From positions 62,001-126,000 of the forward strand of contig NZ_CP100462.1 in assembly GCF_024228675.1 (NCBI RefSeq): a DNA stretch of 64,000 nt. The letters run 5' to 3'. The notes under the pieces were generated by a model that saw only the letters and a list, made by a program, of their open reading frames with translations, searched no databases and was not told the origin of the DNA. Positions 39,923 through 62,391 of this stretch are shown here, piece by piece (positions within the stretch are counted from its first letter, which is position 1; each line of letters opens with the position of its first letter). Source of the DNA: Salinigranum marinum (GTDB lineage: Archaea; Halobacteriota; Halobacteria; Halobacteriales; Haloferacaceae). Position numbers and translations under genes: made by a program.

Positions 39923-41077
39923 TCAGAACTGGTCGCGTCGCCAGTGGGCAACGAGTTCGCGGTCGCCCGTCCGCACGACGACCCCGGGAGCGAGCGCGAG
40001 ACCCCGCGGGCGCGTGTCGATCGGCGGGCGCCAGCGCTCCGTCCCGTCGGGAGCGACGCCGAACAGTCGACGGTCGGTGGCGACGAACACCCCCGCGGAC
40101 GTCGCCACGGGACCGGCGCTGAAGCGCCGACCGACGTCGCCGCCGTCGGGGAGGCCGAACGTCCAGCGCTCGCGGCCGTCGAGCGAAACCGCCGACAACC
40201 CTGAGCGTTCGAGGAGGTAACACCGGTCGCCGGCGACCGCGAGCCCGGACGGGGACGCGACCGGCACCGACCACTGGTCGACACCGTCTTCGAGCGACAC
40301 CGAGACGAGGCCACGCTCCGAGGCGGCGAGGAGCCGGCCGTCCGTCACGACCGGCGGGATCCGACGGACGGGACCGAATCCCGCGTCGCGTCGCGTCCAC
40401 CGCACGGTGCCGTCGGCGGCGACGGCGACGACTCGTGGGCGCGAGTGTCCGAGTTGGACGACGGCGACGCCGGACGAGACCGCGAGCACGGCGTCGCGGG
40501 CGACCGCCGGGGACGACCCCTCCGTGTCCGTGTCGTCGGATGCGGCCGCGGGCGCCCGGTCGCTCTCGACGACCGGCGTCGTCCACCGCCGCGTCCCGTC
40601 GGTGTCGAACGCCGCGAGCCTCCCATCGTCGGCGAGGGCGACGACGCGGTGGCCGTCGCTGTCGACCGCCACGGGCGACGCGTCGAGGGCGGTCCGCCAG
40701 CGCTCCGTTCCGTCTGCCCCCACCGCGACGAGCGCGGTCTCGGTGCCGAGGTAGGCGCTCGACTCGCCCGCACAGTCACGGCGGATGACTTCGGTGGTGG
40801 TCGCCGCTCGCCGCTCCCCGTCCATGGGGTCGTACGCGGTGACGACGCCGCCGTCGAGCCACGTCTCCCGCTCGACGTCGTACCGCCGGACGGAGCGCGA
40901 GACGGCGAGCACCCCACCCGACGGCCCGTAGACAGCCTCGCCGTCGCCGAACGCTCCCGTCGCGTCCGACGTGGTCCAGCGGACGTCGCCGCCGCCGGGG
41001 CGGTAGCCACAGCCCGCGAGTGCCGCCAGGCCGAGCGCGCCCGCGAGGAGCCGACGGCGGGGGACGCGCCACGTCAC
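39923..41077 (-). CDS. PQQ-like beta-propeller lipoprotein
   Basis: 384 residues, GTG start. Three Arg residues (VPRRRLLAGALG) precede a hydrophobic stretch and lipobox LAGC, so Tat or Sec export with lipid anchoring is likely. The mature protein is a chain of PQQ-like blades with the recurrent VVALADDGRLAAFDTDGTRRW pattern and Trp-rich strands, like BamB or quinoprotein propellers but without recognisable cofactor residues. Its start overlaps the htpX stop as GTGA, so the pair is co-translated. A protein-assembly role next to the HtpX protease is inferred. Confidence 0.85.
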   Translation of the reverse strand: MTWRVPRRRLLAGALGLAALAGCGYRPGGGDVRWTTSDATGAFGDGEAVYGPSGGVLAVSRSVRRYDVERETWLDGGVVTAYDPMDGERRAATTTEVIRRDCAGESSAYLGTETALVAVGADGTERWRTALDASPVAVDSDGHRVVALADDGRLAAFDTDGTRRWTTPVVESDRAPAAASDDTDTEGSSPAVARDAVLAVSSGVAVVQLGHSRPRVVAVAADGTVRWTRRDAGFGPVRRIPPVVTDGRLLAASERGLVSVSLEDGVDQWSVPVASPSGLAVAGDRCYLLERSGLSAVSLDGRERWTFGLPDGGDVGRRFSAGPVATSAGVFVATDRRLFGVAPDGTERWRPPIDTRPRGLALAPGVVVRTGDRELVAHWRRDQF

Positions 41078-42108
41078 GGGCCGGCCTCGGCGGACGCCGC
41101 GAGCTCCTCCAGTCGGTCGATCCGGTCGCGGGTCGGCGGGTGCGTCGCCGGGAAGATGTCGCTGGAGAGCAGTTCGCGGTCCCCCCCGAACTGGTAGGTG
41201 TCGATCGGCGCGACGTACAGCGCCTCCAGCCCGCCGTCCTGTTCGCGGAGGTCGGCGTCGGGGAGATCGCCCATCGACTCGTCGAGCGTCCGGAGCGCGC
41301 TCGACAGCGCCAGCGGATCGCCCGTGATGGCGGCCGCCCCGCGGTCGGCGGCGTACTCGCGGTACTGCGACAGGAGCCGAAAGAGCAGGAAACTGCCGGC
41401 CCAGAACAGCGCCGATACCGCGAGCGTGAGGATCGCGCTCACCACGAGGACGACGATGATCGCCACCAGCCCCTTCGCGCCGTCGCCGTCGACGTCCTCG
41501 AACGCGCCGGCGGTGTGGAACACCCCGCGAAGGACGAAGAACGCCGCGATCGCGACGGCGTACGTCAGCGTCGGCAGGAAGTACGCGAGCGTCATCACGG
41601 TCACGTCGCGGTTCTTCACGTGGGCGAGTTCGTGTGCCAGCACCGCCTCGCGCTCGCGCTCGGCGAGCGTGTCGAGCAGGCCGCGCGTGACCACCAACGT
41701 CGCCTCCTGGGGGCGGCGACCGACGGTGAAGGCGTTGGGGACGGAGCTCTCGGTCACGGCGAGATCGGGGACGGGCGCGTCGGCTTGGGCGGCCAGCCGC
41801 GAGAGCGTCGCGTGCAGGGCCGGCTCCGACTTCTCGGAGACGCGACGCGCGCCGACGGCGCGGAGCGCCATCCGCTCGCCGAAGACGTACTGGACGACGA
41901 ACCCCCCGGCGACGACCGGGACGACGGTCCACAGCGGCACCACGAGCCGACCGTTCCACGGCCGGTCGGTTGCCCACGCGAGGAGTTCGAAGCCGACGGC
42001 GTTGACGAGAAAGACCATCGTGTAGACGAACGCGACCGGCATGACCGCGACGACGACGAGCGCACCGAGGACGCGCAGTCGGAGGCCGTCGTCGCGTTCC
42101 CACTGCAT
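41074..42108 (-). CDS. htpX: HtpX-family membrane metalloprotease
   Basis: 344 residues, M48 family. Two N-terminal helices (about 8-30 and 48-70), a soluble domain with the zinc motif HELAH near residue 180, then two more helices (about 200-225 and 235-260) and the third zinc ligand in YREYAADRGA. HtpX degrades misfolded membrane proteins. ATG 42108 is used. It is divergent from the aminotransferase gene across 289 bp with no obvious box. Coupled to the propeller lipoprotein downstream. Confidence 0.95.
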   Translation of the reverse strand: MQWERDDGLRLRVLGALVVVAVMPVAFVYTMVFLVNAVGFELLAWATDRPWNGRLVVPLWTVVPVVAGGFVVQYVFGERMALRAVGARRVSEKSEPALHATLSRLAAQADAPVPDLAVTESSVPNAFTVGRRPQEATLVVTRGLLDTLAEREREAVLAHELAHVKNRDVTVMTLAYFLPTLTYAVAIAAFFVLRGVFHTAGAFEDVDGDGAKGLVAIIVVLVVSAILTLAVSALFWAGSFLLFRLLSQYREYAADRGAAAITGDPLALSSALRTLDESMGDLPDADLREQDGGLEALYVAPIDTYQFGGDRELLSSDIFPATHPPTRDRIDRLEELAASAEAGP

Positions 42109-42397
42109 CACGACCACCGCCGCGAGTGAGGGGCGTTCGCGGGCCGCAGTGTGAGCCGACCGACGCCACGGCGGCCACGACGCGTGCGGTTCGGACGACT
42201 GCCGGGGGGAGGGACGGAGACCATGTCGGTCCGAGGGTGTGAGGGCGACGCAAATAAATCGTCGTGACTGTCCGCGTTCGATGGATGCCCGCGCGACCCC
42301 GGGGCGGTCGTTCCGTCGGCGCATGAGGTGCGAAGAGGGGCGTCCATCGTGCCGGAGACGCAACGCCGAACACCCCGGGGACCGAACCCGTCGGTAG

Positions 42398-43519
42398 ATG
42401 AATCCGACCGAACTGCGTGCGTCCATCCCCGCCCTCGAAGAGGTCGTCTATCTGAACACCGGCGCGAGCGCGCCGCTCCCCCGGCCGATCGCCGAGAGTG
42501 TCCAGCAGTGCGTCGAAGGGCACGGCTACGACTCGCCGACGGGCGAGGGGATGTACCAGTACGCCTTCGACGTGTACGACGAGGCACGGGCGGCGGTCGC
42601 CGGCCTCGTCGGCGCGACGGAGTCCGAGATCGCGCTCACGCAGTCGACCACCGACGGGATCAACCGCATCGCCTGCGCCAGCGAGTGGGAGCCCGGCGAC
42701 GCCGTCGTGACGACCGACGTCGAACACAGCGCGGGCGAACTCCCGTGGCGTCGCCTCGCGGACATCCACGGCATCGAGGTCCGCGTGGTCGAGACCGACC
42801 ACGGCCGACTCGACCCCGACGACGTCGCCGCCGTCCTCGACGACGACGTCCGGCTGGTGTCGCTGTCGGCCATCGACTGGGAGTACGGCCGCCGGTTGCC
42901 CGTCGAGGCCGTGGCCGACCTCGCACACGACGCCGGGGCGCGCCTCCTCGTCGACGCGGTCCAGGCCGTCGGACAGCGCCCCGTCGACTTCGCCGAGTGG
43001 GGCGCGGACTTCGTCGCCGCCGCCGGCCACAAGTGGCTCCTCGGGCCCTGGGGCGCGGGCTTCCTCTACGTCAGCGCGGGCGCGGAGGAGTGGCTCACGC
43101 CCCGACAGATCGGCTACCGCAGCGTCGCCGCCCACGGCGACGGAGCCTACGAGTACAAGTCCGGAGCCCAGCAACTCGAAGTCGCCACCGCCAACCCCGC
43201 CCCCTACGCCGGACTCGTCGAGGCGATCGAGCACGCACGCGCCAACGGGGTCGACGCCCGCGCCGCGCGGATCGAAGAGCTCACCGACTACCTCAAGTCC
43301 CGGATCGCCGACGACCACCTCCTGAGCCCGCGGGCGTACCACTCGGGGCTCGTGACCGTCGAAGTCGACGACCCCGCGGGCGTGGTCGAGCGGCTCGACG
43401 AGCGCGGGGTGAAGGTCCGCGTCATCCCCAGCATCGACTGCGTGCGCGCCTCGGTCCACGCGTTCAACACCCGCGACGACCTCGACCGGTTCGTCGAGGG
43501 CGCGGGTCTGGCCGAGTGA
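42398..43519 (+). CDS. class-V aminotransferase, cysteine-desulfurase-like
   Basis: 373 residues, PLP fold type I. It has NTGASAPLPRPIAESVQ, QSTTDGINRIA, EHSAGELPW, VDAVQAVGQRPVDFAEWGADFVAAAGHKWLLGPWGAGFLYV with the PLP lysine in AGHKWLLG near residue 210. A conserved Cys loop typical of active SufS/NifS desulfurases is not evident, so selenocysteine-lyase-like or isopenicillin-epimerase-like transaminases are alternatives. No Fe-S assembly genes are adjacent. Confidence 0.9.
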   Translation: MNPTELRASIPALEEVVYLNTGASAPLPRPIAESVQQCVEGHGYDSPTGEGMYQYAFDVYDEARAAVAGLVGATESEIALTQSTTDGINRIACASEWEPGDAVVTTDVEHSAGELPWRRLADIHGIEVRVVETDHGRLDPDDVAAVLDDDVRLVSLSAIDWEYGRRLPVEAVADLAHDAGARLLVDAVQAVGQRPVDFAEWGADFVAAAGHKWLLGPWGAGFLYVSAGAEEWLTPRQIGYRSVAAHGDGAYEYKSGAQQLEVATANPAPYAGLVEAIEHARANGVDARAARIEELTDYLKSRIADDHLLSPRAYHSGLVTVEVDDPAGVVERLDERGVKVRVIPSIDCVRASVHAFNTRDDLDRFVEGAGLAE

Positions 43520-43603
43520 ACGAGGCGGCCGAGTTCGGGGCGGCCCCGACAGGACGCCGCTAACCACCCGCTGGAGCCGACGCCGGTGAACCGTTAGGCA
43601 GTC

Positions 43604-43613
43604 CATGTTAATG
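43604..43613 (+). promoter_or_regulatory. TATA-like box of the alkaline-phosphatase-superfamily gene
   Basis: CATGTTAATG, 25-34 nt before ATG 43638. Confidence 0.4.
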
Positions 43614-43637
43614 CCGAGATCACGCCTCTGAGGGGCA

Positions 43638-45350
43638 ATGACCCGGCCAACGGTCCTCCTCATCGGTGTCGACGCCGCCTGTTTCGAGCAGCTCGACCCA
43701 CTCGTTGCGGCGGGCGAACTCCCGACGATCGAAGCGCTCGTGGCGCGCGGGGCCGCCAGCGAACTACGGACGACGTTCCCGCCGTGGACGCCCTCGGCGT
43801 GGCCGTCGGTCGTGACGGGCGTCGAGCCGTGGCGGCACGGCGTCTACGACTTCCACTCGTACGACGGCCCGACGCGGCTCGTCAGCGCGGCCGACGTCCG
43901 CGTCCCGTTCCTCTGGGAGACGCTGTCGGCGCACGGCCACTCGTCGATCGTCGTGAACGTCCCAGTGACCCACCCGCTGCACGCGTTCGACGGCTCGCTC
44001 GTCCCCGGCTACCTCGCGCCGGAGGGGCCGACGGTGCTGGTCGACGGCGTGGAACGGACGCTCGCTGAGCTCGGACTGGACGACTACAGCGTCTACGGCC
44101 GCGACGCCGGGTCGAGAGGGGAGCGCGTCGCCGAGTACGAGCGGCTGGTCGACTCGCGGGTCGCCGTCGCCGAACGGCTCGCCGCCGAGCACGACTGGGC
44201 GTTCATGATGGTACAGTTCCAGGCCCCCGACTCGGTGTTCCACACCGACGGCACCGACCCGGAGGCCGTCGCCCGCGTCTACCGCCGGGTCGACGCCGGT
44301 GTGAAGCGCCTGGTCGACCTCGCGGGCGAGGACTGCGACGTGTTGCTCGTCTCGGACCACGGCATCCAGCAGTACTCGCGGGTGCTCTACCTCAACGCAT
44401 GGCTCCGCGACCGCGGCGACCTCGTCACCGCCGTGGCCGCGACGCGACACGTCTGGAACGAGGGCGAGAAACACGCACTCAGGGAGGGGGACGCCGGCGG
44501 CGACGACCGCGGGAGGGGAACCGATCGGGAGCGAGCGACGCGACGTGGACGGGTCGCGCCCCGCGCGCTCGCCGGACTCGCCCGCGTCGGCTTCACCCCG
44601 GCGCGGGCCGAACGCCTCCTCGCCCGCGTCGGCCTCGACGAGGTCGTCGCGCGGGCACTGCCCGAGTCGGTGCTCCTGGAAGTCGTCGACGCGAGCGCGC
44701 ACGTCGACACCGAGCGCTCGGCGGCGTACTGCCGCTCGCTCTCGTCGCTCGGGATCCGGTGTAACGTCGCGGGCCGCGATCCCGGCGGCGTGATCCCCGC
44801 GGCGGCGTTCGACGCGTTCCGCGCCGCGCTCGTCGACGACCTCCGCGCGCTCCGCGCGCCCGATGGCTCGCCCGTGTTCGAGGCCGTCGAGGACCGCCAC
44901 GCCCTCGTCGGCGCCGTCGCGAACGAGGCGAGCGCCCCGGACGTCCTGCTCCGGCCTGCGGGCATGCGCTGGAAGGTCTCCGACGTCGTTCGTGAACGCG
45001 TTTTCGGCGAGACCGACGAGTTCAGCCACACCTGGACCGGGCTCGTCGTCGCCGCGGGGCCGAGCGTGACTGGCGAGTTCGCCGTCGAGTCGCCCTCCGT
45101 GGTCGATATCGCCCCGACCGTGCTCCGGCTGTTCGGCATCGACCCGAGCGGACTCGACGGCAGGTCGCTCCTCGCCGACGGGGACGGCGTCGAACCGCGG
45201 GCCGACGACGGGGTGGAGCGACGGTTCATCGGCGGCGCGGGCACGAGCGACGGGGTGGCCGCGACCGCCGGAGTGAGTGGGGACGACGGCGACGAAGACG
45301 ACTACGACGTCGTGGCCGATCGACTCAAACAGATGGGGTATCTCGACTGA
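43638..45350 (+). CDS. alkaline-phosphatase-superfamily phosphodiesterase
   Basis: 570 residues. Type I phosphodiesterase/nucleotide-pyrophosphatase fold: IGVDAACFEQL with the first metal Asp, TFPPWTPSAWPSVVTGVEPWRHGVYDF carrying the nucleophile Thr/Ser region, FQAPDSVFH, VSDHGIQQY with metal ligands, and FSHTWTGLVVAAGPSV near the C-terminus. A Gly/Arg-rich insertion lies around residues 285-310. Haloarchaea have many such proteins near surface-glycan genes. Substrates such as nucleotide-sugars or glycolipid head groups are possible but unproven. Confidence 0.9.
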   Translation: MTRPTVLLIGVDAACFEQLDPLVAAGELPTIEALVARGAASELRTTFPPWTPSAWPSVVTGVEPWRHGVYDFHSYDGPTRLVSAADVRVPFLWETLSAHGHSSIVVNVPVTHPLHAFDGSLVPGYLAPEGPTVLVDGVERTLAELGLDDYSVYGRDAGSRGERVAEYERLVDSRVAVAERLAAEHDWAFMMVQFQAPDSVFHTDGTDPEAVARVYRRVDAGVKRLVDLAGEDCDVLLVSDHGIQQYSRVLYLNAWLRDRGDLVTAVAATRHVWNEGEKHALREGDAGGDDRGRGTDRERATRRGRVAPRALAGLARVGFTPARAERLLARVGLDEVVARALPESVLLEVVDASAHVDTERSAAYCRSLSSLGIRCNVAGRDPGGVIPAAAFDAFRAALVDDLRALRAPDGSPVFEAVEDRHALVGAVANEASAPDVLLRPAGMRWKVSDVVRERVFGETDEFSHTWTGLVVAAGPSVTGEFAVESPSVVDIAPTVLRLFGIDPSGLDGRSLLADGDGVEPRADDGVERRFIGGAGTSDGVAATAGVSGDDGDEDDYDVVADRLKQMGYLD

Positions 45351-45412: not shown

Positions 45413-47707
45413 TCACTCCTCGACGTCTGCGGTCGTGACATCGATGTCGACGACGTCCCTCGCGGTCGTGTCCTCGGGGAGTCCGATCTCGTACAGCATG
45501 ACGAGCCGTTTCGGTGCCGCGTCGTTCGCGCCGAACGCGAAGACGACGATCGCCTGGTTGCTCGCGAGGGTGAAGGTGTCGTTCGCGTCGACGAGCGCGT
45601 CGCTCGTGCCCTGTTTGAGCGTATCGTTGCGGATGTCGCCGTCCCACCAGGCGCTCGACTCGTCGATCAGGGGGCCGGCGTCGTCGCCGTCCAGATACAC
45701 CGTGACGTTCGAGGGCGGCACCTCGGTGCCCGACGACTCGTCGATGTCGGTACAGCGCAGCTCCACCAGGTCGGCCGCAGTGGCGTTCTGTTGGACGATG
45801 TCGGTGACACCGTACTCCTCGCAGTTGTACGACGTCGCGTTGATGTCGGTGAGGTTCCCGTCGGCCGCGGTCAACGAGAAGCGGAAGTCGGGGGCCGTCG
45901 GGTCGTTCACGTTGACGTTCGGCGCTCCGTCCTCGGTGACCGTCGCGACGTAGTCGGCGTTCCCGCCGAGCGACGGCTGGTAGACGCTCCCACCCGTGCC
46001 CGCCGACAGCGTCACCGGCTGGTTCACGACGACGTCCGTCTCCGCGATCGTCGCGAACACCTCGGAGAACACGTCGCTGAGGTCGTCGTCCTCGGCGGCG
46101 TAGTGGTACGTCCCGCCGGTCTCGTCGGCGATCGCTTCGAGCGTCGCGTTGTCCGCGCCGTCGCCGAAACCGACCGTGTGGATCGTGACGTTGTTTTCGG
46201 CCGCGACCGCCGCCTCGTCGATCGGGTCCGATGCGTCGTAGTCGTCCTGTCCGTCGCTCAGGAGGACGACGATCGGCTCGCCGGCGCTTTCGCCCTTGAG
46301 ATCGTGGACGACGTTCGCACGGTGGATCCCGGTCGCGCTCTCGGTCCCGCCGCCGGTGACCAGCCGGTCGATGCTGCCGTTGAGGCCCGAACTCCCGAAG
46401 TCGTCGGTCATGTACTTCCCGTTCGGCGTCGTCACGTACCGCGTGTACTCGCTGCTGGAGAAGCCGACAACGCCGCCGCGATCGCGGGACTCGTTCATCA
46501 GGCTGACGAACGTCTTCGCGGCCGCCTTCGCGCGGTCCATCCGCGTCTCACAGCCCGGGTCGTTGGTCTGTCCCCAGCGGTTCCCCGGGCCGTTGATCGG
46601 ATTGAGCGACGAATCGGTGCAGTAGGTGTTCGCGTCGTCGTCGTAGTTCATCGATCCCGACTCGTCGAAGACGAACACCACGTCGATCGGCCGGCGGTAC
46701 GCGACGTTCGTCTCGAACTTCTTGACCGAGCTCACCTGCACTCCCTCGGCGAGCGGCCGAGCCGTCGCAGTGTACCGGTTCGAGGCGTTCTTGTCCACCA
46801 TGATCGCCGCCCTCGTCGTTTCGACCGTCGTGTTCGGGTTCGAGACCGAGAGGTTGACCACCGCGTTGCGGCTGTCGTCGGTGCTCGCGGGTAGGTCCGC
46901 GCTCGTGAGCTCGACCGCGACCGTGTTGGGACCGGTAGACTGCGCGGGGTTTCCGGTCTCCCGTTCGAGGTACGCCGCCCAGCCGCGGTGGTACTCGCTG
47001 GTGACTGCGATCGTGACGTTGTCAGGCCGGCGACACTCCTGCGCTCCGGTGAACAGCCTGTCCTCGAAGGTGGCGCTCTGCGTCGCCGAGAACGCACCGC
47101 GTTTGATCACGGTCGCGCGGTCACCCCCGACGCCGCTGGTGAGGTTCAGCAACGAGACGTCGACCGTCCCGTCCGCGACCGTGATGTCGGGCGGAGAGAC
47201 CACCGCCACCCCGAGCCCGCCGTCGGAAACGCGGAAGATGCCGCCACCCTCGTAGACGGTCGTCTGTCCACGCTCGTCGTAGCGGATCGAGCTCATTGGG
47301 AGCGTCACGCTGCAAGCCCCGCCGCTGACTGACACGCTGACCGTGCCCCCGGCGCTGCCGTTCCGCACGTCGATTGATTCGACGGAGTTCTGTGCGAACG
47401 ACAGTTCGGCGGAGGTCGCTCCACTCCTCGACAGTGACGAGAGTCGGCTGTCGACCTCCCGGACCTGGAGCTCGTTTTCCTCCTGGTCGATGTCGGTCTG
47501 CAGCGAGTTGAGCACGCCCGCGCCCGCGACGGAGACGACGACGATGCCCGTGGCGACCATCCCGATGAGCAACACGGTCCCGACCGTCTCGCTGGCCGCC
47601 CGGACGTCCGACCCGAAGTCGGGTCGCGTCCCCGAGTCGTCTACTCCCGGCGGAGTCTCGTCGTCGGTGCGGTCGTCGTCTGCCGTCGAGTGTGTGGGTT
47701 CGTCCAT
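45413..47707 (-). CDS. pilin-like DUF7289 protein with von Willebrand A domain
   Basis: 764 residues, last gene of the six-gene operon. After a ~30-residue acidic N-terminus comes a DUF7289/archaellin-like hydrophobic helix (SETVGTVLLIGMVATGIVV, about 40-66) and a DUF7289 beta-region. A VWA domain runs from about 345 to 560 with an intact MIDAS (FDESGSMNYD, TESATGIH, and LLSDGQDDYD). A C-terminal beta-rich domain follows. The helix suggests membrane anchoring or assembly into a pseudopilus by type IV pilus machinery. The gap to the gene before it is 6 nt. Confidence 0.88.
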   Translation of the reverse strand: MDEPTHSTADDDRTDDETPPGVDDSGTRPDFGSDVRAASETVGTVLLIGMVATGIVVVSVAGAGVLNSLQTDIDQEENELQVREVDSRLSSLSRSGATSAELSFAQNSVESIDVRNGSAGGTVSVSVSGGACSVTLPMSSIRYDERGQTTVYEGGGIFRVSDGGLGVAVVSPPDITVADGTVDVSLLNLTSGVGGDRATVIKRGAFSATQSATFEDRLFTGAQECRRPDNVTIAVTSEYHRGWAAYLERETGNPAQSTGPNTVAVELTSADLPASTDDSRNAVVNLSVSNPNTTVETTRAAIMVDKNASNRYTATARPLAEGVQVSSVKKFETNVAYRRPIDVVFVFDESGSMNYDDDANTYCTDSSLNPINGPGNRWGQTNDPGCETRMDRAKAAAKTFVSLMNESRDRGGVVGFSSSEYTRYVTTPNGKYMTDDFGSSGLNGSIDRLVTGGGTESATGIHRANVVHDLKGESAGEPIVVLLSDGQDDYDASDPIDEAAVAAENNVTIHTVGFGDGADNATLEAIADETGGTYHYAAEDDDLSDVFSEVFATIAETDVVVNQPVTLSAGTGGSVYQPSLGGNADYVATVTEDGAPNVNVNDPTAPDFRFSLTAADGNLTDINATSYNCEEYGVTDIVQQNATAADLVELRCTDIDESSGTEVPPSNVTVYLDGDDAGPLIDESSAWWDGDIRNDTLKQGTSDALVDANDTFTLASNQAIVVFAFGANDAAPKRLVMLYEIGLPEDTTARDVVDIDVTTADVEE

Positions 47708-47713
47708 ATACGT

Positions 47714-48442
47714 TCACTCCAGCGTGACCGAGACCGTCGTCCGTCGCACGAACACGCGGTCGGTCGAACACGTGTACGTGTCGGGCCCCGAGACCGTCCA
47801 CGAGGGCCGTGAGTCGAAGTACTGCTGCCACCGCGGGTCCGACGTGGTGACGGAGACGCCGGTCACCGACTGTGGGGCGCGGGACTCGGGGAACACGAGG
47901 GTCGACTCGGACCGGAAGAACGCGGCCTGTGCGGTCCCCCCGCCGACAGAACTGGTGTCGAGGGTGTCCAGCCGGACGATCGACACCGTAGCGTGGTCGG
48001 CCGCACACCGGATCGACGGTGACGAGACGACGACCGTCCCGCCGTCTTGCGTGCGGAAGACGGCTCCCCCGACGTAGGAGACGACCGTGTCGCTCGTCCG
48101 GTACGCCAGCCCGCCGGTCTGGATCGTCTCGGAGACGCCGGTGCCGCCGACGTCGACGGTGAGCGAGGTGCCCGTCGTCACGGCGAGCGAGGCGTCGGTC
48201 AGCGAGATCTCCCCCGTCCGGGCCGGGCTCTGACCCGCCTCCAGTTCGTCGACGCCCTCGGCGAGCGTGACGAACCCCCGTTCGGCGGCCTCCGCGCTGG
48301 CCCCGTCCCTGACGTCGGTCAGCGATGACATGCCGAACACGGTCACGAGGCCGACGCCGCTGACGATGAGCGCGAACACGAGGACGAACGAGACCGTGTC
48401 GCTGACCGCGCGGTCGTCGCGCGGGGAGCGATCACGAGCCAT
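47714..48442 (-). CDS. pilin-like DUF7289 protein
   Basis: 242 residues. The N-terminus AVSDTVSFVLVFALIVSGVGLVTV (about 12-35) is the archaellin/pilin-like helix of DUF7289, followed by SLTDVRDGASAEAAERGFVTLAEGVDELEAG and a beta-rich domain with two Cys near the end. It overlaps the preceding gene by 11 nt. Confidence 0.88.
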   Translation of the reverse strand: MARDRSPRDDRAVSDTVSFVLVFALIVSGVGLVTVFGMSSLTDVRDGASAEAAERGFVTLAEGVDELEAGQSPARTGEISLTDASLAVTTGTSLTVDVGGTGVSETIQTGGLAYRTSDTVVSYVGGAVFRTQDGGTVVVSSPSIRCAADHATVSIVRLDTLDTSSVGGGTAQAAFFRSESTLVFPESRAPQSVTGVSVTTSDPRWQQYFDSRPSWTVSGPDTYTCSTDRVFVRRTTVSVTLE

Positions 48443-50477
48443 CGTCGACCTCCCGGACGACGACCGCGGAGAGGGTAGCGTGGCCGCCCCCGTAGTACGA
48501 GGCCCCCTCGACCGTGATCGTGAGGCCGTTCTCCACGTCGACGGTGAACGTCCGGTCGTACGCGGTGTTCTGTCCGCCGGCCACCCCGCTGATGTCCTGA
48601 TACGAGCCCCGTTGCTGGTCTTCGATTTCGACGCCGACGTAGCCGTAGGCGTCGACGTCGGACGGGTCGTTGAACTTCAGCGTAACCTCGTACGTGCCGT
48701 CCGGAATCGCCTTCGAGTACGTCAGGTCGTTGTAGTAGTCGCTCTCGCCGGTCTGATACACGTAGTCGTCCTGGGTGTCGGCCACCGGCTGCGAGGTGGA
48801 CCAAGCGTCGTACCACGGGACCGGCAGCGCCTCGTACCTGACCCCGTCCTGTGAGGTGTACTCCCCGCCGTTGACGTTCGCCGCCCAGACGATGTCGTCG
48901 TCCTCGACGAACACGAGCCGCGTCGTCGAGTCCCGGTAGCCGTCGTCGTCGGTGACGGTCAGCTCGACGACGTAGAGCCCCGGCGAGGTGTAGTTGTGGT
49001 TCGTCGTCTGCCCCGTGCCGGTCGAGCCGTCGCCGAAGTCCCACTCGTAGGCGGTGATCGACCCCTGGGGGTCGTCAGAGCCGGCCGCGTTGAACGTCAC
49101 GGGGTTGTCGACCGTCGGACCCCCGGGAGCGAAGCCGAACTCGGCGTTCGGCCCGCTGATCGGCTCGATGACGAACCGCGAGGCGTAGTACGTCCCGTTG
49201 ACCGAGTAGCGGAGCCCGACGGTGACGTTCCGGCCGACCATGCTGACGTTCTCGCGGAACTCGGTGAGCTCGACGGTCCCGACGGAGTTCTGCGTGATAC
49301 GCGCGCGCTCGTCGTCGGTCTCGATCCGCGGTGACGACTGGTCGTCCGTCAGCGCGACGAGCTTCCCGCCCGCGTCGAGCGACATCCCCGCGGCGTCGTC
49401 CGTGTCACCGTCCTGGCCGTAGTCGGCCCAGCCGGCGTCGTTGCCGCCCACGTACACCTCGACGCTGTCGCGTGCGGTCCCGTCGCTGAGGAGTTCCCGT
49501 GAGTCGCGGTCGCTCAACGAGCCCACGGTCGAGACGTTGGCCTCGGGGTCGACGAGGACGTCCTCGACGTACACCGGCTGGTCGAAGTCGTTCCGGACGC
49601 TGAAACTCACGCCGCCCTGGAAGCCGTCGCCGTCGGCGTCGAACGCGAGCGCATCCTTCTGGTAGACGAGCCCCGACACGACGACCTGCTTCGTGACGTT
49701 GTCGGTCGCCCCCTCGCTGTCGGTCGCGGTGAGCGTGACCGTGTACCGACCCGGCTCGTCGTACGAGTGGGTGACGACCCCGCCGCTCGTCTTCGGGGAG
49801 CCGTCGCCGAAGTCCCACGTGAACGAGTCGAGGTTGCCGTCGAGGTCGGCCGTGTCGTTGACGAACAGGACCGTCTCGTTCGGGAAGGGGATGTACGGAT
49901 CGTAGGCGAAGCCGGGGATCGGCGCGCGGTTCGTCGGGTCGACGGTGTCGCGGAGCGAGCCGCGCCGCGAGACGCCCCGACCGATCCCGACGTTCGGCCC
50001 GACCGTCTCCGTCCGGGGGACCGCCTCGGTCGCCACCCCCGTCGCGTTCGCGGTGATCCGCCACCCGTCGGTCAGCCGGCCGAGCGACAGCGGCGTCTCG
50101 TTGGCGACGGGCACGACGACTGTCACCGACGGACCGGCGCTCCGGAGTTCGAGACACGTGTCCGCTCCGGGCGGGCAGTCCGTCGTCAGGGCCGCGGTGT
50201 AGGACGCGGCCGTCGACAGGTCGGGCTGGTCGGCCCGGAGCGTGACGTTCGTCCCCTGCTGCCCGAGCCGGTCCGCCTCGGCGATGTCCGCCGCGAGCGC
50301 GTTGCCGACCGTCTCCAGCTCCGCGCGGACGGCCCGCTCGCGCCGGTCGTCGACGTAGCCCGAGGCCGTGACGAGGAGGCTGCTGACGAGGATCGTCGTG
50401 AGCGCGATCGCGAGCACGTAGTTGACGGTCGTCGCCACCGCGCGGCCGTCGCGCCGGAACGCGCGCGGCGGGCTCAC
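48432..50477 (-). CDS. pilin-like DUF7266 protein with two PKD domains and a malectin-like domain
   Basis: 681 residues from GTG 50477, which overlaps the upstream stop as GTGA. The N-terminus AVATTVNYVLAIALTTILVSSLLVT (about 12-36) is a pilin-like helix. A ~110-residue DUF7266-type region follows. PKD domains with WDFGDGSPKT and EWDFGDGSTG lie near 245-325 and 475-550, separated by a beta-region. The C-terminal ~145 residues (VWAANVNGGEYTSQDGVRYEA … YVGVEIEDQQ) have the pattern of a malectin sugar-binding domain. This is a good adhesin tip candidate. The coupling of helix, PKD stalk and malectin in one chain is unusual. Confidence 0.85.
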   Translation of the reverse strand: MSPPRAFRRDGRAVATTVNYVLAIALTTILVSSLLVTASGYVDDRRERAVRAELETVGNALAADIAEADRLGQQGTNVTLRADQPDLSTAASYTAALTTDCPPGADTCLELRSAGPSVTVVVPVANETPLSLGRLTDGWRITANATGVATEAVPRTETVGPNVGIGRGVSRRGSLRDTVDPTNRAPIPGFAYDPYIPFPNETVLFVNDTADLDGNLDSFTWDFGDGSPKTSGGVVTHSYDEPGRYTVTLTATDSEGATDNVTKQVVVSGLVYQKDALAFDADGDGFQGGVSFSVRNDFDQPVYVEDVLVDPEANVSTVGSLSDRDSRELLSDGTARDSVEVYVGGNDAGWADYGQDGDTDDAAGMSLDAGGKLVALTDDQSSPRIETDDERARITQNSVGTVELTEFRENVSMVGRNVTVGLRYSVNGTYYASRFVIEPISGPNAEFGFAPGGPTVDNPVTFNAAGSDDPQGSITAYEWDFGDGSTGTGQTTNHNYTSPGLYVVELTVTDDDGYRDSTTRLVFVEDDDIVWAANVNGGEYTSQDGVRYEALPVPWYDAWSTSQPVADTQDDYVYQTGESDYYNDLTYSKAIPDGTYEVTLKFNDPSDVDAYGYVGVEIEDQQRGSYQDISGVAGGQNTAYDRTFTVDVENGLTITVEGASYYGGGHATLSAVVVREVDDGS

Positions 50478-51427
50478 GGATACACCGCCACCGTCCGGGT
50501 CGTGTTCGCGGTCGTCTCCCCCGTCTCGGACGTCGTCGTGATCGTCGCTTCCCAGACGACGGGCGCGTTGCAGGGACCGGTGCCGACCGGACACGACGAC
50601 AGCCCGTTCGGCGGCGACCCCTCGGTGACGAACGCGTACTTCCCCGTCGCGTTCTCGCCGTTCTCGATCCGGATGTCGTAGGTGTCGTCGAGGGGTTCGG
50701 TCAGGTTGAACGAGCAGTCGCCGCCGAAGGCGGTGCCGCGCCGCAGGTCGAGCAGGAGCCGCCCCCGCGACGGCGTACACGGCTGTGCGGCGGTCCCGTT
50801 GCCGCTCGACAGCGCCGTCTCGACGTCGACTGTCTCGGAGTCCGCCCCGGTCGTCGTGTTGCGCGAGAGGTACAGCACGCTGGTGTCGGTGCCGTCGTCG
50901 AGGACCACCCTGGCCCGGTCCGAGCCGGTCGCGTCGGAGACGTTCGCCGCGTCGAGGTTCAGGACGGCCCAGCCGACGCGCCGGGACGTATCGACAGGCT
51001 CCCAGTCGGTGGCGCCGCCCGCGGAGCCGTCCGCGGTGAACGCCCCGTCCGTCGACTGGAGGACGCGCGTCCCGTCCGCCCAGTCGTGCAGGGAGACGTT
51101 CACCACGCCCGGCCGTTCGCGCAGCCGCGACTCCGCGTGGAGCCGCGCGTACGTCGACACGTTTGCCCTGACGGCCGCGTCGAGCGCCGCCTGGTCGGCG
51201 TACGGCCTGCGGTGGTTGACGTACAGCAGGAGCCGCGGAACCTCGCCGGCGGCCGCCCGGTCGAACCCCTCCGCGACATCGAGGTCCGCTCGGGCCTCCG
51301 AGTCGGCGAGCGAGTCTGCGAACAACACGCCGTTGAACGCGACGGCGAGCGTCACCACGACGAACGCCAGGGCGATGCTCCCGACGAGGATGAGCTGGCC
51401 GGCGTCGTCGTCGCGGAGGCTCACCAT
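50474..51427 (-). CDS. DUF7261 pilin-like protein
   Basis: 317 residues with N-terminal DDAGQLILVGSIALAFVVVTLAVAF (about 7-31), the DUF7261 signature, followed by a helical part (SLADSEARADLDVAEGFDRAA), then a beta-rich domain with two Cys. It overlaps the next gene by 4 nt and the previous one by 7 nt. Confidence 0.85.
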   Translation of the reverse strand: MVSLRDDDAGQLILVGSIALAFVVVTLAVAFNGVLFADSLADSEARADLDVAEGFDRAAAGEVPRLLLYVNHRRPYADQAALDAAVRANVSTYARLHAESRLRERPGVVNVSLHDWADGTRVLQSTDGAFTADGSAGGATDWEPVDTSRRVGWAVLNLDAANVSDATGSDRARVVLDDGTDTSVLYLSRNTTTGADSETVDVETALSSGNGTAAQPCTPSRGRLLLDLRRGTAFGGDCSFNLTEPLDDTYDIRIENGENATGKYAFVTEGSPPNGLSSCPVGTGPCNAPVVWEATITTTSETGETTANTTRTVAVYP

Positions 51428-52065
51428 ACGGTCAGGCGCACCTCCACGACGTTGTAGATCGGGCTGGCCGGGGCCGCGTCCGGGATCGGGAAGTACCCGT
51501 CACCGTCGTCCGGGTCGGTGTCGTACTCCCAGAGCTGGCGCTCGTCGTCGTTGACCGCCTGGTCGAGCGTCGTGTTGTCGAACAGCGTCACGCGCTGGCT
51601 CGCCGACACCGCGTCCGGCCCGGGCGGTCCCCGGTACACCAGCGGGATCGATCCCCCGCCGTCGCTCACGTTCGAGACGTTCCCCCCGCGGTAGTGGAGC
51701 ACCAGGTTGTAGGTGTAGCCGTTCTCGGCGAACGTCTCCTCGAACGCACCGTCGAACAGCTCCGGTGGGGGGCCGTCGGCCCCGTAGCCCGACGACGCGT
51801 CGACGGCCCCCGCGAACGTCTGGTCGGTCGCGTCCCACTGCCGGATCGCCGCCGCGAAGTTCGTCTCGGGATCGTCGGCGAGCGTGCGCAACAGGTCGGT
51901 CGCCTCCGTCGAGAGCTGTGCCCGCGCCGACTCCGACACCTGTCCGCCCGTCGTCGGCGTGGCGACCGTCGCCTGGAGCGCGAACAGGACGGCCGAGAGG
52001 AGGACGATCGAGCCGACGAACCCCTCTAGCGTGAACGCCTGGCCGCGCTCGTCGGGAGTCACCAC
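51421..52065 (-). CDS. DUF7288 pilin-like protein
   Basis: 214 residues. N-terminal RGQAFTLEGFVGSIVLLSAVLFALQAT (about 7-33) matches DUF7288; the remainder is beta-rich with no known motif. Start overlaps the previous gene by 7 nt. Confidence 0.85.
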   Translation of the reverse strand: MVTPDERGQAFTLEGFVGSIVLLSAVLFALQATVATPTTGGQVSESARAQLSTEATDLLRTLADDPETNFAAAIRQWDATDQTFAGAVDASSGYGADGPPPELFDGAFEETFAENGYTYNLVLHYRGGNVSNVSDGGGSIPLVYRGPPGPDAVSASQRVTLFDNTTLDQAVNDDERQLWEYDTDPDDGDGYFPIPDAAPASPIYNVVEVRLTVW

Positions 52066-52499
52066 ACTCTCACCACCAGTCGGTAGCGGACGTCGTCGAC
52101 CACGACGAGCCGCGTCGTCGTCGCGGCCCGCTGGTCGTGGTAGTCGGCTCCCGCAGTCACGTCCCGCCCCGCGACGGCCGTCCCGTTCGCGTGCTCGAGG
52201 GTGACGTTCGCGAGCGTCGTATCGCGCAGGTCGTAGTCGCTTCGGAGCGCCGACATCGACCCGTTCGCGAAGAACGCCGTGACCGACGAGGAGTCGAGCC
52301 TGGTCGGGTAACCCTCGACGGAGAGGTTCGCCACCAGATCGGTCGAGAGCCGGTCGGCGACCGCCGCGTTGGAGCCGCCGGCTCCGGCCTCCACCGTCCC
52401 AAGCGCGGAGGGGACGTACGCGAAGACGAACGCGACGGTGAGGAGGAACACGCCGATCCCGACGGCGAAGTCCTGGGTGGTCTGAGCGCGATCAGTCAT
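52059..52499 (-). CDS. DUF7287 pilin-like protein
   Basis: 146 residues. N-terminal AQTTQDFAVGIGVFLLTVAFVFAYVPS (about 4-30) is the DUF7287 helix; the rest is mixed alpha/beta. First gene of the operon; ATG 52499. Promoter elements near the start are not clear. Confidence 0.85.
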   Translation of the reverse strand: MTDRAQTTQDFAVGIGVFLLTVAFVFAYVPSALGTVEAGAGGSNAAVADRLSTDLVANLSVEGYPTRLDSSSVTAFFANGSMSALRSDYDLRDTTLANVTLEHANGTAVAGRDVTAGADYHDQRAATTTRLVVVDDVRYRLVVRVW

Positions 52500-54822: not shown

Positions 54823-56745
54823 TCAGTCGTCCTCGGGCGGCGCGTCGGCGTCGCCGGTGTCGTCGGTCTCGCGGGACGGCTCGGGAGGGTCGTCGGGGCC
54901 GAGCGTCCGCGGGAGCGCCGGCACGGTCGGGAATGCCGACAGCCACGGGAGCCAGGGTCGGTCGAACCCTTCCGTCCGGTAGAACGAAAGCGTCAGCCCG
55001 GCGAGCGCGACCAGCGCGAGGAGCGCGAACGGGCCGCCCGTCAGCACCGCGACGGCCTGGAGCGCCTCGCCGCCGCCGACGAGGAGGACGCCGACGGCGA
55101 CGCTGCCCTGGACGAGGCCCCAAAAGAGGATGCTCCCGCTCGTCGGCGCGAGTTCGCGCCGCGTCGCGAGGATGGAGACGACGAGCGTCGAGGTGTCCGC
55201 GGAGGTGACGATGAAGACGACGATGAGCGCGAGGAAACAGAAGACGAGCAGCCGACTCAGGGGCAGCGCCGCCAGGAGCGGGAAGCCTGCGACCGCTTCG
55301 CTGCCGCCGTACGCCTCGATCGTCCCGAGGATGTCCGCCCGGCCGGAGTGCTGTAACGAGAGGGAGGTCCCGCCGACGAGGACGAACCAGACGACGGTCG
55401 CGGCCGACGTGGCGACACCACCCGTGAGGACGACCGTCCGAACCCGCCGGCCCTTCGAGAGCGCCGCGAGGAACAGGCCGGCGAAGGGGGCCCACGAGAA
55501 CCACCACGACCAGTTCCACACGGTCCACGCCGCGACCCACGGCCCGTCGAAAAAGAAGCTCATCGGCACGAAGTTGCCGAGGTAGGAGCCGAGGGCAGCG
55601 GTGCCGACGTCGACGACCGCCGAGCGTGGGCCGACGCCGACCAGGAGGAGCGCGAACAGGCCGAACAGCGCGAGGTTGACGCCCGAGATCCGTCGGATCC
55701 CCCGCTGGACGCCGCTCTCGGCGGAGACGACGTAGATGAGCGTCAGCCCGGCGACGAACACCACGGGGCCGAGATCGCCGTAGGCGACGCCCCACTGGAA
55801 GTCGATGCCCGCGAGGAACTGCTGGGCGACGAACGCGATCGAGGTGGCGATCCCGCCGATAGTCGCGAAGATGGCCAGGACGTCCACGAGCGTCGCCCAC
55901 CGTCCGGAGAGCCCGTCGACCCCGAGGAACGGGGCCAGGATGGTCGACACCCGCAGGGGCGCGCCGCGCTGGTAGGTGAAGTACGCGATCGGCACGCCGA
56001 TGACGAGGTAAGCGCTCCAGGCCGACAGCCCCCAGTGGAACAGCGCGTACGTCAACGCGGCGACGACGGCGGCGTCCGAGCGGGGGGCGACGTCGAAGAA
56101 CGGCGGCGGCGACCGGTAGTGAAACAGCGCCTCCGCCGGCCCCCAGAAGACGATGCCGGCGGCGATGCCGGCGGTGAAGAACATCGCGAAGTACGTCGGG
56201 TAGGTGTAGGTCGGTTCGGCGTCGGGCCCGCCGAGTCTGACGTCGCCCCACGGGCCGAAGAGCAAGAAGAGACAGTACGCCACGCAGAGGACCATCGCGC
56301 CGAGGAACACCCAGCCGAGCTCTTCGAGCAAGAGCGTCTCGGCGGTGGCGACGGCGCGTCCGGTCGCCACCGGCAGCGCGAACTGCGCGCAAAAAAAGAG
56401 CGCCAGCACGGCCACCGGCACGCCGAACGTCAACGGGTCTTGTTGGGCGAGAAAGCGCCGGAGCTCCGTCAGGGGCGAGAGATGCCGGACGCGGAGCAGA
56501 TAGGGCGCGCTCTGACGGTCGTCGCCGGTGTCGATCTCGTCTTCGACCGGCAGGAGCGCGAGATACGCCAGCCCCGAGCCGAAAAAGAGCAGGGCGGCGA
56601 CGAGCCAGGCTCGTCCCGGGATGACCGACCCGACGAACAACGGGAAGAAAAAGCCCGTGACGACCAACACGCCGGAGAGCGCACACACCGGGAGCAGCGT
56701 CTTCCGGACGGCCGTCTCCACGGCGCTGTACCCGTGTGTTGCCAT
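54823..56745 (-). CDS. BCCT-family transporter
   Basis: 640 residues, ~12 helices. The conserved family regions are TAGIAAGIVFWGPAEALFHY and the Trp-rich WTVWNWSWWFSWAPFAGLFLAALSKGRRVR. It has a longer N-terminus than the second BCCT (60640) and a short acidic C-terminus. BCCT proteins import betaine, choline or related quaternary ammonium compounds with Na+ or H+; haloarchaea use them for osmoadaptation. ATG 56745. It is divergent from a K+ channel gene. Confidence 0.92.
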   Translation of the reverse strand: MATHGYSAVETAVRKTLLPVCALSGVLVVTGFFFPLFVGSVIPGRAWLVAALLFFGSGLAYLALLPVEDEIDTGDDRQSAPYLLRVRHLSPLTELRRFLAQQDPLTFGVPVAVLALFFCAQFALPVATGRAVATAETLLLEELGWVFLGAMVLCVAYCLFLLFGPWGDVRLGGPDAEPTYTYPTYFAMFFTAGIAAGIVFWGPAEALFHYRSPPPFFDVAPRSDAAVVAALTYALFHWGLSAWSAYLVIGVPIAYFTYQRGAPLRVSTILAPFLGVDGLSGRWATLVDVLAIFATIGGIATSIAFVAQQFLAGIDFQWGVAYGDLGPVVFVAGLTLIYVVSAESGVQRGIRRISGVNLALFGLFALLLVGVGPRSAVVDVGTAALGSYLGNFVPMSFFFDGPWVAAWTVWNWSWWFSWAPFAGLFLAALSKGRRVRTVVLTGGVATSAATVVWFVLVGGTSLSLQHSGRADILGTIEAYGGSEAVAGFPLLAALPLSRLLVFCFLALIVVFIVTSADTSTLVVSILATRRELAPTSGSILFWGLVQGSVAVGVLLVGGGEALQAVAVLTGGPFALLALVALAGLTLSFYRTEGFDRPWLPWLSAFPTVPALPRTLGPDDPPEPSRETDDTGDADAPPEDD

Positions 56746-56825
56746 GTCGTGACCCTCGGTCGCATTCGGGTTAGACCTGTCGCCGAGCCGACCGACCGCG
56801 GTGGGGACGGGTCGGTCGCGCAGAC

Positions 56826-56835
56826 TTTTATATAA
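56826..56835 (+). promoter_or_regulatory. TATA box of the K+ channel gene
   Basis: TTTTATATAA is the best TATA match of the window, 25-34 nt before the first GTG (56860), so the mRNA should be leaderless. Confidence 0.65.
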
Positions 56836-56859
56836 CGTCACCCGGTATCACTGAGCACG

Positions 56860-60639: not shown

Positions 60640-62391
60640 TCAGTCGCCGCTGGCCGTATCTTCTCCCTCCCTGATGCTCGTCACGGTCGCATCGCCGGAG
60701 GTGACTACCTCCACCTCGCCCTCGGCCGTGAGGTCCTCGATACGCTGGGCGAACGCCTCGCTCTCGAGGATCGAGTGCTCGTTATCGAGCCCCAGATAGA
60801 CGGTGTAACACATCAGGCACAGGATCACCGCGAACGGTAAGCCGGTGGTGATCGCGGCCGTCTGGAGCGCGCTGAGGCCGCCGCCGTACAGCAGGATGGC
60901 CGCGACCGCGCCCTCGGTGACGGCCCAGAAGATACGCTGGGTCTTCGGGACGTCGTGCTTGCCGCCGGAGGTCAGGTGGTCGATGACCAGCGACCCCGAG
61001 TCCGAGGAGGTGACGAAGAACGTGACCACGAGCAGCGTTGCGAGGATGCCCGTCAGCGCGCCGAGCGGGAACTGCTCCAGCATGGCGAACATCGCGATCG
61101 TCTGCCCCTGTGCGTTGTACAGTTCGAGGATGCCGCCGGCACCCTGCAGCTGGACGAACAGCGCGCTGCCGCCGAACGTCGACAGCCAGACGAACGAGAA
61201 CAGCGCCGGCAGGAACAGCACGCCGAGGACGAACTCGCGGACGGTCCGTCCCTTCGAGATGCGTGCGATGAACATCCCGACGAACGGCGACCAGGCGATC
61301 CACCAGCCCCAGTAGAAGACGGTCCAGGCGGTGACGGTCGAGCCGCCCGCGCCCATGGTGCCGGTGAAGAAGCTCAGCGCGAGGAAGTTACCGAAGTACG
61401 CGCCGAGGCCCTCGACCCACGCGCCGAAGATGTACACCGTCGGGCCGACGACGAGCAGGAAGCCGAGCAGCGCGAGCATGAGGTAGAGGTTGAGCGTGCT
61501 CAGGCGCTTGACACCGCCGTCGAGGCCCGCCGCCACGGAGGCGGTCGCGATCGCCGTGATGCCGGCGATGAGAAGCACCTGCGGGAGCGTCCCGGTGGGG
61601 ATGCTGACGAGACCGAGGAGGTCACCGCCGACGTACGAGAGGCCGGTGTTGACCTGTGCGACCCCGAGGCCGAGCGACGTCGCCAGGCCGAACAGGGTCG
61701 CGAAGACGGTCACGAGGTCGATGATGTGGCCCGGCCAGCCGTAGATCCGCTCGCCCAGGAGCGGCCAGAAGATCGACCGGAACGTCAGCGGCAGTCCCCG
61801 GTTGAACGAGAAGAACGCGAGACCCAGGCCCACGAGCCCGTAGATCGCCCACGGGTGGAAGCCCCAGTGGAAGAACGTCTGCGCCATCGCGGCCGACGCC
61901 GCGGCGCCACTCTGTGCTTCGGCACCGAAGAAGCCAGGAACGTTCTGGAAGTAGTACAGTGGTTCGGAGACGCTGAAGAACATGAGGCCGATCCCCATGC
62001 CGGCGCTGAACAGCATCGCCATCCACGAGAAGTCGTCGAACTCCTTTTCGGCTTCGACACCGCCGATCCTGATCCCGCCGTACTTTCCGAAGGCGAAGTA
62101 CAGGATCGTGACAATGAAGATGTTCACTGCGAGGATGTAGAACCAGCCGAACGTGCCGTTGACGAAGTTGAAGATGGCGGTGTACGCCGAGGCTGCCTGG
62201 TCGCCCAGCAGGATCGTGACCGCGATGAACACCGCGATGATCACCAGGGCGACCGGGAAGACGACCGGGTGGATGTCGAATCCCCACTTCACGATGTTGG
62301 TGTCGCCGGGTTCCCGGTCGGAGTCCGGGTGGAACAGCTCCACCTGGAGCCCGTCGGACATCTCCCCCGTGGTGTTCTCGCCGTCAGCCAT
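60640..62391 (-). CDS. BCCT-family transporter
   Basis: 583 residues. The glycine-rich GMGIGLMFFSVSEPLYYF and Trp-rich WTVFYWGWWIAWSPFVGMFIARISKGRTVREFV motifs are those of betaine/carnitine/choline transporters; ~12 helices. The strong GGGAGGTAA before its ATG suggests translation from a leader. It is a clear paralogue of 54823-56745 but closer to the bacterial type, and the two may differ in substrate or affinity. Confidence 0.94.
   Translation of the reverse strand: MADGENTTGEMSDGLQVELFHPDSDREPGDTNIVKWGFDIHPVVFPVALVIIAVFIAVTILLGDQAASAYTAIFNFVNGTFGWFYILAVNIFIVTILYFAFGKYGGIRIGGVEAEKEFDDFSWMAMLFSAGMGIGLMFFSVSEPLYYFQNVPGFFGAEAQSGAAASAAMAQTFFHWGFHPWAIYGLVGLGLAFFSFNRGLPLTFRSIFWPLLGERIYGWPGHIIDLVTVFATLFGLATSLGLGVAQVNTGLSYVGGDLLGLVSIPTGTLPQVLLIAGITAIATASVAAGLDGGVKRLSTLNLYLMLALLGFLLVVGPTVYIFGAWVEGLGAYFGNFLALSFFTGTMGAGGSTVTAWTVFYWGWWIAWSPFVGMFIARISKGRTVREFVLGVLFLPALFSFVWLSTFGGSALFVQLQGAGGILELYNAQGQTIAMFAMLEQFPLGALTGILATLLVVTFFVTSSDSGSLVIDHLTSGGKHDVPKTQRIFWAVTEGAVAAILLYGGGLSALQTAAITTGLPFAVILCLMCYTVYLGLDNEHSILESEAFAQRIEDLTAEGEVEVVTSGDATVTSIREGEDTASGD

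Follow-up and report, generated by a model that had tools for sequence, protein, structure and literature searches.

A probable modular pilin gene in a six-gene operon

The window analysed here, a stretch of 64,000 nt from Salinigranum marinum (NZ_CP100462.1) within which all positions are counted, carries on its minus strand six adjoining pilin-like genes in the order DUF7287-DUF7288-DUF7261-modular pilin-DUF7289-DUF7289+VWA, with ends that overlap or almost touch. The fourth gene (48432..50477, minus strand) encodes the modular pilin, a protein of 681 aa and exactly the open reading frame delimited in an earlier, sequence-only reading of this DNA; its GTG start codon overlaps the stop codon of the gene upstream (GTGA). 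On the upstream side lie the genes for a DUF7287 pilin-like protein (52059..52499, minus strand; Pfam, with the start set at MTDRAQTTQDF), a DUF7288 pilin-like protein (51421..52065, minus strand; Pfam and homology) and a DUF7261-like pilin-like protein (50474..51427, minus strand), whose Pfam match of 19 bits is below the cut-off and which was assigned via synteny and homology. These are followed, on the downstream side of the modular pilin, by the genes for a DUF7289 pilin-like protein (47714..48442, minus strand; Pfam and leader scan) and for a DUF7289 pilin moiety fused to a VWA domain (45413..47707, minus strand; Pfam) with an intact DxSxS MIDAS. In the plasmid collection, the operon is covered by no record; a search for near relatives retrieved nothing beyond RidA (5% of the query) and a stretch of PKD, and the protein search gave partial matches only.

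Further genes were observed on both sides of the operon. Downstream, an open reading frame of 1246 aa (39923-45350) has a PQQ_2 stretch at its C-terminus and adjoins a type I phosphodiesterase-like gene. Two BCCT-family transporters, probably for compatible solutes, are encoded within 8 kb of each other, at 54823-56841 and 60640-62391 (minus strand).

The N-terminus of the modular pilin has the features of an archaeal pilin precursor. A pattern scan with the leader motif given in PMC9934059 found a clean [D/R]-R-A|hydrophobic leader at residues 1-13 (VSPPRAFRRDGRA; 50439..50477, minus strand), with PibD-type cleavage predicted after Ala13. A class III signal peptide, defined here as a hydrophilic leader ending in Gly or Ala and followed by about 21 hydrophobic residues, is evident as GRA|VATTVNYVLAIALTTILV, with a best 18-residue mean hydropathy of 2.3, and is present in all 14 DUF7266 proteins examined. 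The pilin moiety itself is a match to DUF7266 (PF23928; residues 10-127, 50097..50450, minus strand) of 62 bits against a cut-off of 27.6. An N-terminal helix (residues 14-72; 50262..50438, minus strand) was placed by the pattern scan and by the secondary structure of a low-confidence full-length AlphaFold2 model, which was made from two sequences (pLDDT 36.9), shows this one helix followed by beta strands, and was excluded from all fold claims. The pilin-like helix proposed from the sequence alone is borne out by family match and leader, and the low-confidence model would fit it; the DUF7266 family, the surrounding pilin operon and a middle domain described below had been missed.

Gly or Ala stands directly ahead of the hydrophobic stretch in all six pilins of the operon. 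An acidic residue is absent from mature positions 1-6 of the modular pilin and of every DUF7266 protein examined (14/14). Across eight related clusters, Glu3 is present in seven of eight VWA pilins, and position 3 is Asp or Glu in six of eight DUF7289 proteins; these counts exclude DUF7287 and DUF7288, in which the leader scan cut too late. In bacterial filaments, the tip pilins K and PilA likewise lack Glu5 (PMC9934059).

Behind the pilin moiety, two PKD domains flank a domain without a Pfam family. PKD domain 1 (residues ~185-268; 49674..49925, minus strand) and PKD domain 2 (residues 455-520; 48918..49115, minus strand) are both covered by PKD_4 stretches, with limits taken from an alignment. 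The two PKD domains recognized earlier were recovered as two PKD_4 stretches at E 2.8e-39, and PF18911 and PF00801 also pass their cut-offs (133 and 107 bits, two stretches each). The middle domain (residues 266-443; 49149..49682, minus strand) is kept in orthologues, and weaker counterparts of it recur among other pilin-like proteins; judged from its sequence matches, it resembles a module, as yet unnamed, from which pilin-like proteins of haloarchaea are built. Of the 392 genomes sampled from the order, 112 (in 36 of 96 genera) contain such matches, frequently within frames of 600-900 aa, several of which have another pilin-like N-terminus.

The malectin-fold domain and its sugar-contact residues

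The protein ends in a malectin-fold domain (residues 525-681; 48435..48905, minus strand) delimited by a PF11721 match at 48525-48890 and by its predicted fold. In the Pfam scan of the whole protein, PF11721 matches residues 530-651 with 19.9 bits (E 7.8e-4), below the cut-off of 23; a scan of the isolated domain gives 23.7 bits (E 5.4e-5), a borderline value just above that cut-off, and one that includes its frame neighbours gives 23.3 bits. The orthologue from the same genus (G464) scores 44.4 bits and that of Haloprofundus marisrubri SB9 (G207) 108 bits, which argues that the S. marinum match, the sole malectin match in its genome, is not a chance one. An AlphaFold2 model of the 157 residues, built on an alignment of the S. 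marinum domain with 57 relatives from genome contigs, has a pLDDT of 86.7 and a pTM of 0.85. Foldseek ranked human malectin first among the PDB matches of this model (E 8e-9, TM 0.81), and structural comparison gave Z 17.5 for human malectin (9ikp; rmsd 2.4 over 151 residues), up to 17.9 for malectin-like parts of bacterial beta-glucuronidases, about 16 for the plant proteins FERONIA and ANXUR, and near 10 for CBM35/36 and other modules. Clear malectins dominate the alignment and may bias the model towards their fold, so that model and sequence match are not independent evidence. A malectin fold is thus confirmed by prediction, and the malectin-type C-terminus of the sequence-only reading agrees with the predicted fold, with the score of the isolated domain and with the stronger orthologues; in the comparison with PF11721 that it had proposed, only the whole-protein score fell short. 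Comparison with a viral fold library gave weak matches only (best TMq 0.53), such as one with TMq 0.35 to a Haloarcula tailed-virus virion component.

The fold does not bring the known sugar site with it. The proposed diglucose contacts of Xenopus malectin are Y67, Y89, Y116, F117 and D186 (PMC7783096), and the letters of the structure chain fit this numbering at a constant offset of 27. Column 116 is aromatic in 55 of the 57 relatives and Ser in S. marinum; at column 186, 52 of 57 have D, N, E or Q (28 of them Asp itself), against Gly in S. marinum; and the Glu of the FAE motif, present in 52 of 57, is Asp. Column 117 is variable across the family, the placement of site 89 is uncertain owing to a local insertion, and site 67 is not placeable in the alignment. 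According to the alignment, the same-genus orthologue also lacks the aromatic residue at 116 and Asp-Asn at 186, and in the Haloprofundus orthologue both positions are retained (116 as Phe, 186 as Asp). The contact set of a diglucose lectin is therefore not complete in the S. marinum domain. The sequence-only reading had taken a lack of sugar-contact residues to speak against its carbohydrate-binding tip, and with 116 and 186 gone this is largely the case: the pilin scaffold, the PKD spacers and the malectin-fold end of that proposal stand, and sugar binding in the manner of malectin is not supported for the S. marinum protein.

These residues bear on the possibility that the tip is a true carbohydrate-binding malectin for alpha-glucans or glycoprotein glycans, as in animals. 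The predicted fold would fit such a function, a lectin of the LamG type occupies the same place in one related cluster (G307), and orthologues such as that of Haloprofundus may bind in this way. The Ser, Gly and Asp substitutions in S. marinum speak against it, as do poplar malectin domains in which only Y67 and F117 are kept (PMC7783096), which indicates that the malectin fold alone does not predict a ligand. Carbohydrate binding is accordingly a weak proposition for the S. marinum domain, judged from its residues, and the animal-like version is improbable. The glucose disaccharide bound by animal malectin is probably not what the S. marinum domain binds; the expected ligand is a different surface glycan or a protein of other cells. 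The tyrosine content of the S. marinum domain exceeds that of any of the 57 relatives, with aromatic loop residues at W31, Y32, Y57, Y58, Y87, Y102, Y137 and Y138 (domain numbering), and a new aromatic surface on the tip is therefore possible. A malectin fold whose sugar site is lost calls for caution in equating "malectin" with glucose binding.

Malectin domains among haloarchaea

The sequence-only reading considered malectin on a haloarchaeal surface surprising in itself, which overstates the matter: 59 of the 392 genomes sampled from the order (29 of 96 genera) contain PF11721, among other places in Tat-secreted GH16 enzymes, so malectin as such is ruled out as the surprise. What is notable instead is its position on a minor pilin linked to PilB/PilC, at a tip that is exchanged between species.

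Other haloarchaeal carriers show a range of arrangements. Two Tat-type secreted GH16 enzymes (L068:8042-9904 and L074:9907-11274) have an N-terminal malectin, which is an ordinary use as a carbohydrate-binding module. Secreted-type proteins at seven further loci (L084-L088, L090 and L091) contain three to five malectin domains each, most of them being 2000-2700 aa long. Two Pilin_N (PF07790) proteins combine PKD with a strong malectin match (L073:9163-11277 in G221 and L076:7919-10504 in G266; P0008 and P0009). With these two proteins, the idea that malectin was fused to a pilin-like anchor just once in haloarchaea is rejected; the fusion took place more than once. A protein of 1711 aa from Halorubellus salinus (L101:4580-9715) has a pilin-like N-terminus, several PKD domains, one malectin domain and stretches resembling the middle domain.

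Exchange and divergence of the tip

Eight clusters, picked as full-length or best middle-domain matches, were compared: those of S. marinum, its congener G464, G207 (Haloprofundus), G349, G192, G370, G199 and G307. The six-pilin set is complete in all eight, and each VWA pilin has the DxSxS MIDAS; the VWA gene is inverted in five clusters and moved to the front in G307. The tail of the modular pilin changes between clusters. It consists of PKD, middle domain, PKD and malectin in S. marinum and G464; PKD, middle domain and malectin in G207, from which PKD domain 2 is missing; PKD and middle domain only in G349 and G192; and PKD, middle domain and a short tail without a confident family in G370 and G199. 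In G307 (L172:7706-10294), PKD and the middle domain are followed by a Laminin_G_3/ConA-like lectin (69 bits) in the place of malectin. The tips are thus malectin in three clusters, a LamG/ConA-type lectin in one and not confidently named in two, and two clusters have no tail.

Between the two Salinigranum species, the malectin domain is also the most divergent part of the protein. Identity between S. marinum and G464 is 97% in PKD domain 1, 80-81% in the middle domain and PKD domain 2, 75% in leader and helix and 68% in the head; it is lowest, at 56%, in the malectin domain, where dN peaks as well (0.34, NG86). Divergence of this kind, together with the orphan position of the operon described below, could reflect a decaying duplicate that has lost PilB-PilC and whose malectin domain is degenerating. 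All six frames are nevertheless open in S. marinum and the sister species, the MIDAS of the VWA pilin is intact, and dN/dS, estimated by NG86 only, takes values of 0.05-0.4 outside the malectin domain and about 0.5 within it, which together make decay very unlikely.

The history of the malectin tip was followed in a tree from which rows L109 and L121 were left out and to which G464, G221 and G266 were added. In the best tree, the malectins of S. marinum, G464 and Haloprofundus do not form one clade, and that of Haloprofundus groups with G221 (82/76); forcing the three together was not rejected (p-AU 0.337). The tree would fit acquisition of the tip once or twice.

The pilins were also compared with their short counterparts. 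The S. marinum chromosome C1 carries a paralogous, canonical cluster with the order PilB-PilC-DUF7287-DUF7288-DUF7261-DUF7266-DUF7289-(DUF7289+DUF7308), in which the DUF7266 protein is a pilin of 167 aa without cargo, and G464 has a similar cluster. In a DUF7288 tree of 15 proteins, the eight modular clusters group together with moderate support (89/88), apart from six canonical ones, and a short cluster of G221 is a long-branched neighbour of the modular group. A scan for presence only detected DUF7266 in 368 of the 392 genomes sampled from the order. Within the canonical (short) clade, one cluster of G307 encodes an additional DUF7266 protein, 357 aa long and matching PKD, which means that tails are not limited to one clade. 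DUF7266 tails would thus have arisen more than once or been swapped.

Linkage to PilB/PilC and possible filament assembly

In five of the eight orthologous clusters (G207, G349, G192, G370 and G199), the genes for PilB and PilC, a secretion ATPase and a T2SSF/TadC platform protein, lie directly upstream of the pilin set. No such linked pair is present at the S. marinum cluster: neither PilB nor PilC was found near the modular pilin or on its contig, C2, and all four secretion ATPase matches of the genome are on C1. In G464, the ATPase matches are on C1 and C4 and the modular cluster is on C5; in G307, the nearest ATPase is about 140 kb from the modular cluster. With no PilB/PilC gene nearby or on its contig, assembly of the S. 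marinum modular pilin into a filament is putative. It has been reported that PilB3-C3 of H. volcanii can replace PilB1-C1, rescuing a pilB1-C1 deletion that has an adhesion defect (PMC6491452), which makes assembly in trans plausible, and combinatorial pilin sets have been proposed for archaea (PMC4858521).

The orphan position leaves room for a membrane-anchored surface protein outside any filament, with the helix in the membrane and the PKD and malectin-fold domains reaching through the S-layer. Malectin joined to a pilin-like N-terminus elsewhere without this gene set, as in P0008 and P0009, or in a very large protein, as in Halorubellus salinus, would agree with such an anchor. The six-pilin set stays together in all clusters, however, and stands behind PilB-PilC in five of eight, which renders a filament-free anchor unlikely. 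The preferred reading, to which a probability of roughly two in three is given, is that the protein serves as a modular minor pilin in a type IV pilus system of the haloarchaeal PilB/PilC type. Its architecture, its operon, the linkage of its orthologues to PilB/PilC and the exchange of its cargo are established at the level of sequence comparison.

If the protein is such a minor pilin, PibD would cleave its leader, the six pilins of the operon would form a complex at the pilus tip, and PilB/PilC encoded at another locus would assemble the S. marinum set in trans. The PKD domains would then hold the malectin-fold and VWA modules outward as two adhesive arms, comparable to PilC and PilB of S. 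sanguinis, the placement at the tip being suggested by analogy. A broader proposal is that haloarchaeal PilB/PilC pili have an exchangeable two-armed tip, one arm being a DUF7266 pilin that bears malectin, LamG or a different module and the other a DUF7289-VWA pilin. Such a tip would be an archaeal equivalent, independently evolved, of the PilABC tip of S. sanguinis. In this genus, a second set would have shed its motor genes and borrow PilB/PilC, and its fast-changing malectin-fold tip, having lost the ancestral sugar site, would serve species-specific cell-to-cell recognition. Taken as a whole, this scenario is tentative and rather doubtful.

To our knowledge, neither the tip subunit nor the specificity determinant of archaeal type IV pili is known. 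The conserved gene set, in which the lectin-like module is exchangeable and its VWA partner constant, offers specific candidates from five DUF families without known function.

Comparison with known systems

Human malectin has the same fold as the S. marinum domain at about 20% identity, and its contacts 116 and 186 are lost in S. marinum. The S. marinum domain is predicted to be extracellular, whereas animal malectin resides in the ER. The malectin-like receptors FERONIA and ANXUR of plants are alike in fold, but theirs are receptor-kinase ectodomains of unrelated architecture. In CAZy, malectin (PF11721) is classified as CBM57 (PMC7783096).

Haloarchaeal PilB-PilC loci resemble the clusters described here in combining a secretion ATPase, a TadC-like platform and several minor pilin genes (PMC4858521, PMC6491452). 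They differ in that no PKD or malectin pilin is named in the available parts of these papers, the term PKD occurring 0 times in that of PMC4858521. Modular pilins are common in bacteria, with more than 1200 proteins in 264 architectures counted on the motif IPR012902 (PMC8179133). In the searched literature, which lacks most subscription papers, no paper on malectin pilins and none naming the five DUFs was found; none on archaeal modular pilins was recognized from titles and abstract beginnings, and none on archaeal malectin from titles.

The closest parallel is the system of S. sanguinis, in which a VWA pilin and a lectin pilin are encoded in one operon and have been proposed to form a pilus cap with PilA (PMC9934059, PMC8179133). 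In both systems, a VWA pilin and a lectin-fold pilin share an operon; as in S. sanguinis PilB (VWA) and PilC (ConA-like lectin), a class III leader and a pilin moiety are joined to an adhesive module (PMC8179133), and a tip pilin, putative in haloarchaea, lacks the usual acidic residue (PMC9934059). The LamG/ConA-like lectin superfamily of the G307 tip is also that of S. sanguinis PilC (PMC8179133). In contrast to the bacterial set, the haloarchaeal one consists of archaeal pilin families (DUF7266, DUF7289) with archaeal-type PilB/PilC, and it carries a malectin fold on PKD spacers instead of Ig and ConA lectin domains; its tip position and binding are putative, and the S. marinum copy has no adjoining PilB/PilC. 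This comparison suggests that bacteria and archaea separately reached one design, in which a VWA pilin is paired with a lectin-fold pilin.
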